From positions 1-44,179 of the forward strand of contig NZ_CABHXX010000065.1 of NCBI RefSeq assembly GCF_902170565.1: a stretch of 44,179 bases of DNA, written 5' to 3'. Both the position numbers and the translations under genes were made by a program. Under the pieces are notes generated by a model. It worked only from the letters and a program-made list of their open reading frames with translations. It had not been told where the DNA came from and searched no databases. Shown piece by piece: positions 25,849 through 44,117 of the stretch. The stretch's first letter is position 1. Every line of letters begins with the position of its first letter. The DNA is from Yersinia thracica (GTDB lineage Bacteria > Pseudomonadota > Gammaproteobacteria > Enterobacterales > Enterobacteriaceae).

Positions 25849-25878
25849 GGCAGAAACGCTATAGTTTCTGCCTTTTTT
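25849..25878 (+). terminator. Rho-independent terminator of the ypfM transcript
   Basis: GGCAGAAAC-gctata-GTTTCTGCC is a 9-bp perfect stem followed by six T residues. Confidence 0.9.
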
Positions 25879-25923
25879 ATTGGCCATTTATCACTCTTAT
25901 TTATCACTCTCAGTCGATTGTCA

Positions 25924-27138
25924 CTAACGGTTTTGATATTGATAGCCCATCCAGGGAACAACGATGTTGCCACTGTTAATAAGAAAGAAACGCTCAAAGC
26001 CGGGGATCAACACATTGACGACAGTACAACCGGAAGCGCTTTGATAGAGAATATTAACCAGCAGTTGATATCCGCGCTTATTTAACTCCCGCTCCACCCG
26101 CAATAATTGCTCAATCACTGGTTTGATGGGGGCGTCTTCTGGAATATCGATACTATGCAAGGTTCTATCCGTTAATAATCCGGGCAAATAGGCTTCACAA
26201 CTGCGGCGCAGTTTTGGCCAGCGTGATAAACGACGTAAAGAATGATGCTGCGTATTAACAAGATAAGGATAGCGATTTACGATGGAATGAAACTGAATGA
26301 GTTCTGTTATCGCTCTGGATATGGCGTAATAAGGCGAGAGGGAGGTTCCTGCACCAAATAAATGTACCGCCTGACAGGGTTTATGGCCGAAAGCGATAAA
26401 AGTTCGACAGATGGAAGATTGGCTGATTTCGAGAACTGTAATGTTATCTGCTATTTCCGCCTCAGCATTTCGCCATAAGGTGTGAAGTTGTTCTTGTATC
26501 GAATCAGGGTTAACCAGCCGTAACGCTTTGTTGCTATCTTGATAAAAATAATTAATCAAAAACTGTGATAAATCTTCGCGCTCAATGCTTTCGTTCGCGG
26601 CATGCAGCGTGGCTTCCTGAAAAGAGGAGCCAATGGCTGTGCCACTGTTACTGGAATAACGGCGTAATACCTGATAATCGAAGTTGTCTCCTTCGAGGGG
26701 CGAATCTGCGTAATCTGGGGTTGAAAAAACGACGGGGTAAAAAATCGAAATATCTCCGGAGATATTACTGTAATGGCGACAAGCAATTCTTGTATTGGGT
26801 TGAGTTTGTAGCTGATCTCTGACGAAATCAGTACAACCCAATGTATGTTGTAGTGTATTGGTTTTACATAATGTCATTTCGCCGAATTTTTGGTGATTGG
26901 TTGAAACATAATGTTCAAATGCTTCATAAAAAGCACCGGTTAGAGCCGCACCATCAATACCTTTACCTACACCTTTACTGAGTAAATTATTATTATGATC
27001 ATAAATATCACATGTGGTTGTAATGATATTTTGACCCAAATTTTCTATATGGGGAGTGATGGCATCATCTTGAAATTCAGCCAGAATTCGTTTTTTTGCT
27101 TCGGCTAATGTGATTTCACGCTCATAAGGTAATTCCAT
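25924..27138 (-). CDS. Stand-alone YcaO-domain enzyme, probable RiPP cyclodehydratase/amidine synthase
   Basis: The 404-residue protein has the full YcaO ATP-binding pattern. GKGIDGAALTGAFYEAFEHY (58-77) supplies Glu72 and Glu75; GTAIGSSFQEATLHAANESI (166-185) plus ERED supplies Glu175, Glu183 and Glu186; GAGTS...ELIQ (262-282) supplies Gln282. The C-terminal part has the usual VVNVLIPGFERF strand. YcaO enzymes use ATP to activate peptide amide bonds, giving azolines, thioamides or macroamidines. No E1-like, TfuA or dehydrogenase partner is nearby. ATG 27138 has AGGAGA 7 nt upstream. It is read after the 37-codon peptide gene, across a hairpin. It is the only such gene at this otherwise conserved ypfM-acrD site and looks acquired; it is A+T-richer than its neighbours. 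Confidence 0.88.
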   Translation of the reverse strand: MELPYEREITLAEAKKRILAEFQDDAITPHIENLGQNIITTTCDIYDHNNNLLSKGVGKGIDGAALTGAFYEAFEHYVSTNHQKFGEMTLCKTNTLQHTLGCTDFVRDQLQTQPNTRIACRHYSNISGDISIFYPVVFSTPDYADSPLEGDNFDYQVLRRYSSNSGTAIGSSFQEATLHAANESIEREDLSQFLINYFYQDSNKALRLVNPDSIQEQLHTLWRNAEAEIADNITVLEISQSSICRTFIAFGHKPCQAVHLFGAGTSLSPYYAISRAITELIQFHSIVNRYPYLVNTQHHSLRRLSRWPKLRRSCEAYLPGLLTDRTLHSIDIPEDAPIKPVIEQLLRVERELNKRGYQLLVNILYQSASGCTVVNVLIPGFERFFLINSGNIVVPWMGYQYQNR

Positions 27139-27159
27139 TCATTTATCTCCTGTTAACAA

Positions 27160-27190
27160 TTAATTAAGGAGGCCAAAGCCCCCTTAATTA
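27160..27190 (-). promoter_or_regulatory. Hairpin between the peptide gene and ycaO, possible attenuator
   Basis: On the minus strand AATTAAGGGGG and CCTCCTTAATT pair around CTTTGG, giving about 11 bp with one mismatch. It starts soon after the peptide stop codon and ends just before the ycaO ribosome site. It may stabilise the peptide mRNA and lower read-through into ycaO. The trailing U run is short. Confidence 0.6.
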
Positions 27191-27195
27191 TGATG

Positions 27196-27309
27196 CTATT
27201 CATTTTCCAGTTCAGCTAACTCCTTTTCTGTTAGACAAGTAAGATGTTCATTGTTTTCAATAGACTCATCTTCATCGACTTTATTTGGTAATAAACCGAG
27301 AATACCCAT
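27196..27309 (-). CDS. Candidate RiPP precursor peptide (37 residues)
   Basis: A minus-strand ORF too short for usual calling begins at ATG 27309, with AGGAGA 6 nt upstream, and ends at TAG 27196. Its first ten residues are MGILGLLPNK: hydrophobic, with Gly after Met so that methionine aminopeptidase would expose a free glycine. The middle is acidic (VDEDESIENNEH) and the end is LTCLTEKELAELENE, a likely amphipathic helix with the only Cys. This layout resembles bottromycin precursors, in which the core is N-terminal and an acidic follower peptide is C-terminal. It precedes ycaO by 57 bp on the same strand. Function is inferred from layout only. Confidence 0.75.
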   Translation of the reverse strand: MGILGLLPNKVDEDESIENNEHLTCLTEKELAELENE

Positions 27310-27338
27310 GGTTATATCTCCTGAGTTTCTTGAGGTTA

Positions 27339-27374
27339 ATGTTGTGTTTTTATTCCCGAAGTATAACGGGAGAA
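27339..27374 (-). promoter_or_regulatory. 5' UTR hairpin of the peptide mRNA
   Basis: On the minus strand TTCTCCCG and CGGGAA pair around TTATACTT, about 45 nt before the peptide ATG. A stable 5' hairpin could protect the transcript. Confidence 0.4.
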
Positions 27375-27377
27375 ATA

Positions 27378-27406
27378 AATATGGATGATGAATTTAAATT
27401 GGTCAA
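27378..27406 (-). promoter_or_regulatory. Candidate sigma-70 promoter of the peptide-ycaO operon
   Basis: On the minus strand TTGACC and CATATT are spaced 17 bp, about 70 bp before the peptide ATG. The -10 matches 4 of 6. The surrounding DNA is strongly A+T-rich (27360-27510), which would suit H-NS silencing. Confidence 0.5.
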
Positions 27407-27508
27407 GACATAACTAAAATATATGGTCGCTATTTTTTATTTTATTTTTAATTAGTTATTAGAATATAATTAATATATTTGCTTATTGTTCTTTGTTTCA
27501 CTTTAAAT

Positions 27509-27545
27509 AAAAAAGGTGACACTAATTACTCGTGTCACCTTTTAC
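27509..27545 (-). terminator. Rho-independent terminator of acrD
   Basis: AAAAGGTGACAC and GTGTCACCTTTT form a 12-bp stem around about 9 nt, with T-rich sequence on the minus strand after it. It separates acrD from the peptide promoter. Confidence 0.88.
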
Positions 27546-27558
27546 CTATCGCCAGTAT

Positions 27559-30500
27559 TTACTGAGTGTCACTATTTTTCGCGCGCGGTGGCCTGCCAGG
27601 GAAGCGGCGGCGTACCAAGACAAAGAACAATGGCACGAAGAAAATAGCCAGCACAGTCGCAGAAATCATCCCGCCCATCACGCCAGTACCCACCGCATGC
27701 TGGCTACCTGAGCCAGCGCCTTGACTGATAGCCATCGGCAATACACCAAAGATAAATGCCAGAGAAGTCATCAGAATGGGCCGCAACCGCAGGCGGGAAG
27801 CTTCAAGCGTCGCCTCCACCAAATCCTTGCCTTTATTGTTTAACTCACTGGCAAACTCGACAATCAATATGGCATTTTTGGCGGATAGCCCAATAATGGT
27901 CAGCAATCCGACCTGGAAATAGACATCATTTTCCAAGCCCCGCATCCAGGTGGCAGCCACCGCCCCAATCACCCCGAGCGGCACCACTAACATCACCGAG
28001 AAGGGTATCGACCAACTTTCATATAACGCCGCCAGACACAAAAACACCACTAACAGCGAGATAGCATACAGCGCCGGAGCTTGTGAGCCGGATAGCCGCT
28101 CCTGATAGGACATTCCCGTCCATTCCAGACCGAATCCATTGGGCAGTTGTTTAACCAACCCTTCCATCACATTCATGGCGGTGCCGGTACTGACGCCTGG
28201 AGCGGCTTCGCCGACAATTTCTAATGCCGAATAGCCGTTATAGCGCTCCAGCCGTGGCGAGCCATATTCCCAGCGGGTGGTAGAAAATGCCGAGAAAGGC
28301 ACCATGCCGCCACTTTTATTGCGCACAAACCATTTGTTGACGTCTTCCGGCAGCATCCGCGCCGTGGCTTCAGATTGGACATACACTTTCTTCACCCGGC
28401 CGCGGTCAACAAAGTCATTAACGTAAGTCGAGCCCCACGCAGTTTTTAGCGTGTTATTAATATCATCCAATGACACGCCCAGTGCTTGTGCTTTGCGCTG
28501 ATCAATATCTATCTGCAATTGCGGGCTGTCATCCAACCCGTTATGGCGCACGCGAGTCAGCGCGGGGTCTTGGGCGGCCATTTGCAGTAATTGGTCACGG
28601 GCGGCCATCAGTTTATCGTGGCCTAAGCCGCGGTGATCTTGTAATTCCATATCAAAACCTGATGAGCCACCTAAACCTGAAATGGCCGGTGGGCTGCTGA
28701 CAGAGACTCTGGCCTCGACGATTTTATTAAACACTTTGGTGGCGCGTTCAATAATGGCAAAAGATGAGTCATTGCTGTCTTTGCGCTGTTCCCAGTCGGT
28801 CAGCCGGATGAACAAGCGCGCAACGTTTTGGCCATTACCGCCGGGGCCAGACCCCACGGTGGCGAATACCGACAGCACGTTATTTTTCTCTGCCGTCAGG
28901 AAGTAATTCTCGACTTTCTGCACCACTTTGAGTGTTTGTTGCTGAGTAGAACCAACAGGAAGTTGCACCTGCGCCATAAACACGCCACGGTCTTCCAGCG
29001 GCAAGAATGAAGTAGGTAACTTGATAAACAGCAGTGCCAGCCCACCTAACAGCAATAAATACAACAGCATATAACGCGCACTATGGTGCAAGACACGCGC
29101 TACGCCCCGCTCGTAGCGGTGTGTATTGCGGTCAAACATGCGGTTAAACCAGCCAAAAAAACCGCGTTTGGCATGATGATGCCCCGGTTTGATGGGCTTG
29201 AGCATGGTGGCGCAAAGTGCAGGGGTCAGAATCAAGGCGACCAGTACCGAAAGCACCATGGCGGAAACGATAGTAATGGAGAACTGGCGGTAAATGGCCC
29301 CAGTGGTGCCACCGAAGAAAGCCATCGGGATAAACACCGCCGACAGCACCAGCGCAATTCCCACCAGTGCGCCCTGAATTTGCCCCATAGATTTACGGGT
29401 GGCTTCGCGCGGATCAAGCCCTTCCTCGCTCATCACGCGCTCCACGTTTTCCACCACCACGATGGCATCATCGACTAACAGGCCGATGGCTAACACAATG
29501 GCAAACATGGTTAAGGTATTGATACTGAAACCAAATGCCGACAGTATCGCGAAAGTGCCCAATAACACCACCGGCACGGCGATAGTCGGGATGAGTGTGG
29601 CGCGGAAGTTTTGTAAGAATAAATACATCACCAGGAAAACCAGCAAAATGGCTTCCAGCAAGGTTTTTACCACGTCCTTAATAGACGCTTTCACAAAGGG
29701 GGTGGTTTCGTAAGCAACTTTCGCCTCAAGGCCCTGCGGGAAGAAAGGTGCCAGTTCGGCGATGCGCGCTTTCACCAGAGCATCGGTTTGCAATTCATTG
29801 GCACCGGAAGCCAGCTGAATACTCATCCCCGATGCGGCTTGACCATTATAGCGGCTCAGATAATTGTAATTCTCTGCACCCAATTCAACTTTTGCGACAT
29901 CCCCTAAGGTGACCAACGAACCGTCCTGATTGACTCGCAGCGTAATCCCCCTGAATTGTTCGGGAGTTTGCAATTGAGATTGTGCATTAATAGTGGCATT
30001 CAAAGATTGGCTGTCTACCGCGGGCGTTCCCCCAAGCTGGCCCACCGCAATTTGGCTATTTTGTGATTGGATGGCGGTGACAATATCTTGGGTCGTCAGT
30101 TGATAATTATTGAGTTTATTGGGGTCGAGCCAAATTCGCATCGCATATTGAGAACCAAAGGCATTGATACTGCCAACCCCTTCAATTCGGCTCAGTGGAT
30201 CTTGCAAATTACTGGCCACATAGTCGGCAATATCTTGTTTATCCATGCTGCCATCGGTGGACACAAAAGCTAGCATCATCAAGGTGCTATCACCGGATTT
30301 GGAGACTGAAACACCCTGTTGCTGGACATCCTGCGGCAGTTTTTTGGTCGCCGATTGCAGCTGGTTTTGCACCTGCTGCATAGCTTCATTGGGGTTAGTG
30401 CCCGCCAGGAAGGTCAAAGTGACGGTGGCCGTACCCGCACTACTGCTCTGTGATGACATATACAGCAAGTTATCCAGCCCGGTCATACTTTGTTCGATGA

Positions 30501-42944: not shown

Positions 42945-42998
42945 AATAAAATCTTTTTTGCCACACTCTTGCCACAATTAGAAATAAAAGAGTGCAGA

Positions 42999-44117
42999 AT
43001 GGCGACGATCCGCAAGCGTGGTGCCTATCAATGGGAAACTCAAATCCGTAAACGTGGCTTCCCGTCACAAACTAAAACGTTTAATACCAAAGCCGAGGCT
43101 GATGCCTGGGCAAAAATGGTTGAGTCGGAAATGGCTCGCGGCGTGTGGCTTAGTCGTAGCGAATCGGAATCGACAACGCTATATGACTCGTTAGTGCGTT
43201 ATGAGAATGAAATTGTCACCAACAAAAAGGGAGCGGTGCAAGATAGGTCTATTATCCGCATCTTTAAGCGGCAACCATTAGCCAGATGTTATATGGCCAG
43301 TATTCGTAGTGCCGATGTTGCCAAATTAAGAGACGAATGGTTAAAAGACTATGCGCCGGCCACGGTGCTACGCCGCCTATCTCTGCTTTCTCACTTATTT
43401 AATATTTCCCGCAAAGAGTGGGGAATGGAAAGCCTGATTAATCCTGTTGATCTGATCCGCAAACCCCAGCCCGATAATGCCCGTACACGGCGTATAGCTG
43501 TTGAGGCCGTTTCAGCCGTAGATGAATTGGGTAATGAGGTTAAAACGCCAAGAAACACCGCTCAGGACGAAATCGAGCGGATTGTTACCAATACTCAATC
43601 TCCGATATTGCCATCAGCGGTTTGCCTGGCGTTGGAAACGGCTATGCGACGTGGTGAAATTGTTGGGTTACGCTGGAAATATGTCGATTTAAAGCTGCGT
43701 GTCGCTCACTTGCCTAAGACAAAAAATGGCGATTCGCGTGATGTGCCGCTTTCTTCAAAAGCGGTAGCAGTATTAGAAAAGTTAAAGATTATCGCGGAGG
43801 CCAGGGAAGAGGACGAGAATTCAACTGATGATCGGGTATTTAAAGCTCGAGTTGACGCAATAAGCTGTGCATTCGATAGAGCCAGAAAGCGCGCTCGTAA
43901 ACTGTATGAGCAAGAATGTGCTGCTTCAGGAAAGAAAGCCAACTCAGATTATTTACTGGATTTGCGATTCCACGATTTACGCCATGAAGCCACCTCACGC
44001 CTGGCTGAAATCTTTCCTATGCACGAACTCACAAAAATAACTGGCCACAAAGACCCTAGAATGCTGATGAGATACTATCATCCTAGGGCAGAGGATTTGG
44101 CGAAGAAGTTGGTTTAA
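42999..44117 (+). CDS. Tyrosine site-specific integrase
   Basis: The 372-residue recombinase has an N-terminal arm-type domain (MATIRKRGAYQWETQIRKRG), a core-binding domain, and the catalytic residues: Arg in ETAMRRGEIVGLRW, Lys in LPKTKNGDSRDVPL, HDLRHEATSRL, and GHKDPRMLMRYYH with the nucleophile Tyr. It is intact. ATG 42999 is chosen over a TTG 30 bp earlier. It is next to core genes and near the window edge, so it likely belongs to an integrated element that continues to the right. Confidence 0.92.
   Translation: MATIRKRGAYQWETQIRKRGFPSQTKTFNTKAEADAWAKMVESEMARGVWLSRSESESTTLYDSLVRYENEIVTNKKGAVQDRSIIRIFKRQPLARCYMASIRSADVAKLRDEWLKDYAPATVLRRLSLLSHLFNISRKEWGMESLINPVDLIRKPQPDNARTRRIAVEAVSAVDELGNEVKTPRNTAQDEIERIVTNTQSPILPSAVCLALETAMRRGEIVGLRWKYVDLKLRVAHLPKTKNGDSRDVPLSSKAVAVLEKLKIIAEAREEDENSTDDRVFKARVDAISCAFDRARKRARKLYEQECAASGKKANSDYLLDLRFHDLRHEATSRLAEIFPMHELTKITGHKDPRMLMRYYHPRAEDLAKKLV

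Follow-up and report, generated by a model that had tools for sequence, protein, structure and literature searches.

The macrolactamidine (macroamidine) ring is known, within the literature that we searched, from the bottromycins, ribosomally synthesized and post-translationally modified peptides (RiPPs) whose clusters carry many further genes. Loss of btmF abolishes the macrocycle and keeps the thiazoline, and btmE likely encodes the thiazoline enzyme (Crone et al. 2016, PMC5103208). The ring closure proposed there is an attack of Gly1 on the amide between Val4 and Val5 (PMC5103208). The initiator methionine is usually removed by host aminopeptidases, and because these handle an MGP start poorly, bottromycin has a dedicated peptidase (PMC5103208). 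Here we analyse a pair of genes from Yersinia thracica (contig NZ_CABHXX010000065.1) that lies in a stretch of 44,179 nucleotides, which we call the window. The pair consists of a 37-codon peptide gene followed by a gene for a stand-alone YcaO enzyme, and together they form a small cassette beside acrD. We consider it fairly probable that the pair is a self-contained two-gene RiPP pathway of the bottromycin macroamidine type, a chemistry that we infer.

With the bottromycin system (precursor BtmD; YcaO BtmF, BotCD or PurCD) the locus shares a Met-Gly start, a presumed N-terminal core and a stand-alone YcaO of the same clade. It also shares an acidic C-terminal follower (ELSALEMEELES versus HLTCLTEKELAELE), a likeness that has no statistical support in a profile comparison. 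We take the names BotCD and PurCD to denote enzymes of the BtmF type. In contrast to bottromycin, the cassette has no thiazoline YcaO, methyltransferases, aminopeptidase, amidohydrolase, P450 or exporter, the precursors of its family lack the MGP start, the window core has no Cys and the host belongs to the phylum Pseudomonadota.

Other YcaO systems are less similar. Streptamidine (ami) likewise has a stand-alone YcaO, a small precursor and an amidine product, which for our locus is a prediction. However, ami clusters encode AmiB, a protein with a RiPP recognition element (RRE) or E1-like domain, together with a hydrolase, usually a dehydrogenase, and iron and ATP-binding cassette (ABC) transporters, and their precursors have a leader-core-follower layout (PMC8442711). 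The cassette shows none of these features; the separation is by gene content alone, AmiD not being in our tree. Klebsazolicin also comes from an enterobacterial host and carries an N-terminal amidine made by a YcaO, as predicted here, but that YcaO acts together with partners and forms azoles as well (PMC7136475, PMC8442711). The E. coli YcaO, which thioamidates uL16, has the superfamily and the ATP site in common with ours; it differs in being longer, with a TPR domain (PMC13063428), in acting on a protein and in belonging to another clade.

Results

The peptide is a genuine gene under purifying selection. In the 15 pairwise comparisons of six Yersinia species, the nonsynonymous rate (dN) is 0-0.062 versus a synonymous rate (dS) of 0.049-0.872. 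Among 35 codons 19 are variable, 13 of them by silent changes and 6 not, and the first ten residues, MGILGLLPNK, are identical in all six species. Low dN/dS and intact frames are found for the peptide and ycaO alike. A preliminary description of the locus, made from the letters alone, had proposed to look for stops and codon conservation among relatives and to compare core with follower. There are no stops and most changes are silent; residues 1-10 and a follower motif are conserved, and the layout appears to put the core first and the follower last, as in bottromycin. The defining arrangement of a RiPP system, a ribosomal precursor conserved beside a modifying enzyme, is present.

The pairing recurs across bacteria. 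Eight homologues were aligned and used to search named genomes; this returned 60 loci, which belong to Pseudomonas, Yersinia, Pantoea, Vibrio, Lysobacter, many actinomycetes, one Atopobacter and one Cyanobium bin. Read loosely, by eye, 52 of the 60 have a Met-Gly (MG) open reading frame (ORF) of 37-59 codons 5′ of ycaO, and most of these peptides carry an acidic ‘LTxxE’ stretch at the C-terminus. An automatic scan with strict settings (ATG-GGN start, ribosome site, 35-60 codons) recovered 43 of 60 loci versus 27 of 5638 random windows taken from both strands of the same loci, an enrichment of about 150-fold. When the follower motif was also required, the counts were 39/60 and 7/5638. Among genomes sampled later, 26 of 298 in Pseudomonas and 23 of 120 in Nonomuraea's family had a match, known positives included. 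Together with the class-wide sample described below, they yielded 38 new loci, 30 of which have an MG ORF upstream. This last count was reached in three rounds: 20 of 38 in the first scan, 8 more when 13 of the 18 misses were rechecked, and 2 more when the last 10 were read in their proper frames.

We aligned the precursors in 62 rows, with two precursors each from L052 and L060 and without L015, L045 and the Pantoea duplicate L002 (alignment A5). The columns L26, E30 and L31 are nearly invariant, and the follower was not a search criterion. Gly2 occurs in 60 of 62 rows and Pro3 in none. No family in NCBIfam or Pfam covers these precursors, the window peptide included. At E values up to 10 the 62 peptides together match three families, none of which is the bottromycin precursor model NF033414. 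As far as we found, the family is undescribed, in a literature search that most subscription papers and all supplements lay beyond; the supplementary peptide networks of the streptamidine paper may well include its actinomycete members. In Pseudomonas putida 31800 (L026) ycaO is kept beside a 25-codon ORF, MSYMLSWLANA..., with Ser2, perhaps a decaying precursor.

The co-occurrence of peptide and enzyme that the preliminary description had suggested checking is therefore seen in 52/60 and 30/38 loci, and homologous ycaO genes are not consistently without the peptide. Its proposal that the peptide is the YcaO substrate gains from a pairing that holds across phyla, although the modification itself is still an inference. 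It had also not recognised any such two-gene YcaO system; the family is indeed undescribed in what we found, but its enzyme falls in a large clade that includes a bottromycin YcaO.

Judged by its sequence, the window YcaO belongs to the bottromycin macroamidine (BtmF-type) clade and has kept its ATP-site residues. The Pfam model PF02624 is matched along its entire length (E 1.4e-22), and no NCBIfam family matches above its cut-off. Residues E72, E75, E183, E186, E279 and Q282 are all conserved in the alignment, which bears out the description of a complete YcaO with its ATP-binding glutamates. In the YcaO family these six positions serve in ATP and Mg binding.

The bottromycin clusters provide a useful comparison. 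NF033414 found its own precursors in two of 392 Streptomyces genomes. Against our family profile, the second YcaO of these two clusters scores 239 and 236 bits in full-length matches, and the first, which adjoins the precursor, 49 and 60. Gene order and the btm letter names suggest that the high-scoring second YcaO is BtmF. No other YcaO of the same genomes exceeds 84 bits; the 120-bit line for calling a sequence ‘family’ was set after this gap in the scores was seen.

In a quick tree of 84 rows (82 of 102 domain sequences, near-copies omitted, plus two domains from L039) the bottromycin thiazoline YcaO was set inside the family by a branch of 3.36, and for this reason it was left out of a more careful tree. 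That tree has 59 rows (41 family, two BotF and 16 other YcaOs, with near-duplicate or long rows dropped) and splits the family and BotF from the 16 others with support 100/99. BotF is nested in the family beside Lysobacter (83/82), and a split with a BotF-free family occurs in 18% of bootstrap trees. Two residues follow the same division. Ser266 is found in 53/56 family rows, 2/2 BotF and 1/24 other YcaOs, and His76 in 56/56, 2/2 and 0/24 (5 of the 24 being gapped). Because His76 was part of the search pattern of the 60-locus scan, the count was repeated on the 38 later loci (32 without the pattern), and both residues are present in 38/38. His76 and Ser266 are candidate marks of macroamidine chemistry. 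All 25 Yersinia genomes also have a 590-600-aa YcaO of E. coli length, in a clade different from that of the window enzyme.

Within Yersinia, the pair is a patchy, low-GC cassette of 1.7 kb beside acrD that is missing at the same site in relatives. A homologue occurs in 8 of 25 genomes, as six orthologues (79-100% identical) and two relatives (37% identical) located elsewhere, and acrD is present in all 25. At five acrD loci the peptide and ycaO adjoin the gene and one further locus stops at a contig end; six have an ABC importer gene near acrD and no cassette, and 13 have neither inside the 1.5-2 kb examined. When five empty sites were aligned, similarity to the window was lost at about 27577-27584 and regained at about 25854-25892. 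Between these borders two of the five have some 55 bp and the other three 190-500 bp of different sequence. The cassette has a G+C content of 31-45% versus 49-57% in the flanks. In wider samples, matches were found in 1 of 295 genomes of the order, a sample with just two Yersinia, and in 2 of 369 of the class, the window genome being counted in both. The pair had been placed at a conserved enterobacterial ypfM-acrD site, which does not hold: it lies between acrD and a PhnSTUV-like importer, and an orthologue occurs in 6/25 Yersinia genomes and a match in 1/295 of the order. A second type of pair, MGYMVSFNANPV..., occurs elsewhere in two of the 25 Yersinia genomes, one of them matching Y. nurmii, with a methyltransferase and a hydrolase (L013, L014, L024).

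No genes other than the peptide and ycaO were found inside the cassette limits. Its neighbours are acrD on one side and the PhnSTUV-like ABC importer on the other, the importer names resting on matches below the models' cut-offs. No TfuA was found in the whole genome of the strain, and none of the 35 other window ORFs scanned is an E1-like, radical S-adenosylmethionine (SAM), TfuA or SagB-type protein. A second YcaO, radical SAM methyltransferases, P450, BotP and BotAH are likewise absent from the cassette and from these 35 ORFs, and a search confined to the window found no E1-like or RRE partner. The scanned ORFs do include several housekeeping peptidases and one esterase. The claim that no partner is adjacent therefore stands for E1-like, TfuA and SagB-type proteins, but acrD adjoins the cassette and housekeeping peptidases lie in the window.

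Discussion

The pathway that we favour would run as follows. The ribosome would make the peptide with an N-terminal core, GILGLLPNK after Met loss, and a C-terminal follower from about residue 11. Since residue 2 is Gly and residue 3 is not Pro, Met1 would be stripped by the host methionine aminopeptidase. The C-terminal ‘LTEKELAEL’ would dock on YcaO as the follower, and YcaO with ATP would activate a backbone amide near residue 4. The free Gly1 amine could then attack the carbonyl of about residue 4, giving a macrolactamidine ring with the loss of one water (-18.011 Da), after which host peptidases would cut off the follower. With a ring of four residues, as in bottromycin, the predicted product would be a Gly-Ile-Leu-Gly ring with a Leu-Leu-Pro-Asn-Lys tail. 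Such a peptide might be antibiotic-like or a signal; as for its export, AcrD adjoins the cassette yet occurs in all 25 Yersinia. The absence of Pro3 from the 62 family precursors fits a pathway without a peptidase of its own. Residues 2-15 of the window peptide contain no Cys, Ser or Thr, so an azoline is impossible in this core and an 18-Da loss before residue 16 would indicate an amidine or a similar backbone ring.

A number of observations weigh against this pathway. The window YcaO is just 24% identical to the bottromycin enzyme, membership of a clade is no proof of the nucleophile, and three later relatives (L195-L197) have Gln in place of Glu75, beside His76. Comparison of precursor profiles with the bottromycin precursor was not significant (probability 1.6%). 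In bottromycin the amidohydrolase BtmI aids ring closure (PMC5103208), and the cassette has no amidohydrolase; on the other hand, later work cited in PMC8442711 and PMC7136475 has bottromycin YcaOs working without a partner. The pairing is also incomplete. Eight of the 60 loci have no MG peptide (L026, L058, L063, L064, L066, L069, L070 and L073). In L058 and L064 a follower-like peptide is present that has Ile2 or Val2 in place of Gly2, and no peptide was found upstream of ycaO in L063, L066, L069, L070 and L073. An MG ORF is likewise lacking from 8 of the 38 later loci (L148, L188-L191, L193, L194 and L197) and from the second Lysobacter copy, L125. Finally, the Gly2 count is partly circular, because the upstream scan required Met-Gly.

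How else could the pair be read? It may be a true precursor-enzyme pair with a different modification, which we regard as rather unlikely. Thioamides, small amidine rings of the klebsazolicin or streptamidine kind and MusD-like backbone cleavage are all known YcaO outcomes (PMC13063428, PMC10885120, PMC8442711), and the low identity to the bottromycin YcaO leaves room for them. Against this, the clade and the residues H76 and S266 are those of the macroamidine enzyme, and Met-Gly starts agree with a first residue Gly whose amine is free. A TfuA thioamide system was rejected on the absence of TfuA from the whole genome. We also rejected an azoline-forming system, i.e. a thiazole/oxazole-modified microcin (TOMM) or linear azole-containing peptide (LAP), given the composition of residues 2-15 and the lack of an E1-like or RRE partner among the window ORFs scanned.

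It is improbable, in our view, that the small ORF is a regulatory or leader ORF and that this YcaO acts on a protein, as the E. coli enzyme modifies ribosomal protein uL16 (PMC13063428). The peptide does stand 5′ of a hairpin, as a leader ORF might. However, the peptide is conserved at the amino-acid level, phyla far apart share its follower motif, and all 25 Yersinia genomes already have a separate 590-600-aa gene from the other clade, on which grounds an E. coli-type ycaO was rejected. More remote still, and very improbable, is an ORF that arose by chance next to a decaying orphan ycaO. The patchy distribution and the decayed look of the one P. putida relative would suit such a history, but the low dN/dS of peptide and ycaO, the frames intact in six species and the roughly 150-fold excess of such ORFs relative to random windows led us to reject it.

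Returning to the macroamidine pathway, a wider proposal is possible, which we put forward tentatively and at slightly less than even odds. There may be a cross-phylum class of RiPPs for which one MG peptide gene, one YcaO and housekeeping peptidases suffice to make N-terminal macrolactamidines. Bottromycin would then be a heavily decorated branch and the Yersinia cassette a minimal, horizontally moving form. What is known is that the enzyme clade and the layout are bottromycin-like; what is new is that the precursors fall outside the bottromycin model and that the other bottromycin genes are absent. If true, this would provide a simple two-gene system for N-terminal ring peptides in culturable Gram-negative bacteria, identify the decorative genes of bottromycin, and make many undescribed precursors directly testable.

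Locus features and variants of the family

The features of the locus are listed in Table 1. The coordinates, the minus strand, the lengths of 37 and 404 aa and the 57-bp gap given in the preliminary description are all exact. The ribosome sites that it called excellent are good, with a Shine–Dalgarno sequence 5′ of each ATG (CAGGAGATATAACC-ATG for the peptide gene and AACAGGAGATAAATGA-ATG for ycaO).

Table 1. Features of the peptide-ycaO locus in window coordinates
Feature	Coordinates	Strand	Remarks
Precursor peptide gene, 37 codons, MGILGLLPNKVDEDESIENNEHLTCLTEKELAELENE	27196..27309	-	Conserved in six Yersinia species
Stand-alone YcaO gene, 404 aa; proposed macrolactamidine synthetase, clade of the bottromycin macroamidine YcaO	25924..27138	-	
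57-bp spacer with 13-bp hairpin (27190-27161), then ycaO ribosome site	27139..27195	-	
Promoter-like site TTGACC-17-CATATT, 5′ of precursor gene, 9/12 match	27378..27406	-	
Cassette, approximate limits	25880..27577	.	Alignment to empty Yersinia sites and GC

The spacer hairpin has a predicted energy of -18.7 kcal/mol (z -3.9), and 0 of 200 shuffles are as stable. All 78 cells are paired in the six sequences, with one compensatory pair; 70 of 500 shuffles reach the same, so the covariation is weak. Perhaps the hairpin limits read-through and keeps the precursor in excess over the enzyme. Promoter-like sites upstream of the precursor gene are no more frequent than in shuffles of the region, i.e. 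at chance level. A gene of the phage integrase family (PF00589, E 7.9e-27) lies at the right end of the window (42969-44114), some 15 kb from the cassette.

Elsewhere in the family, gene neighbourhoods were surveyed over 70 stretches. The gene finder used was a rough one, which called ycaO in 56 of the 70, and genes shared among GC-rich loci may have escaped it. The commonest companions, each present in 12 of the 70 stretches, are a SAM methyltransferase and a hydrolase of the prolyl-aminopeptidase-like kind. Both occur in Pseudomonas and in the Y. nurmii type, Pantoea has the methyltransferase only, and the Vibrio loci have an ABC transporter in the cluster. In the Pantoea plasmid copy (L002, 7226-8047) an N-acyl amino acid synthase of the FeeM type (PF21926, E 2.9e-26) lies downstream, a possible acylating enzyme for a peptide or for what is released from it.

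Several loci depart from the simple pair. In Kibdelosporangium philippinense (L039, 4707-7349) two family YcaO domains (406 and 381 bits) share one 881-aa frame behind a single MG precursor. Conversely, two Actinomadura loci (L052, 4545-4809, and L060, 4373-4657) have two different MG precursors in tandem 5′ of one ycaO. The precursors of a Pseudomonas subgroup (L168-L171), such as MGKYCCMYINEF... and MGMWCCMYINEF..., contain two Cys early in the core. In Mycobacteroides chelonae, a 138-kb plasmid (L007, 4689-6158) carries a distant relative of the enzyme (124 bits) with an MG ORF upstream.
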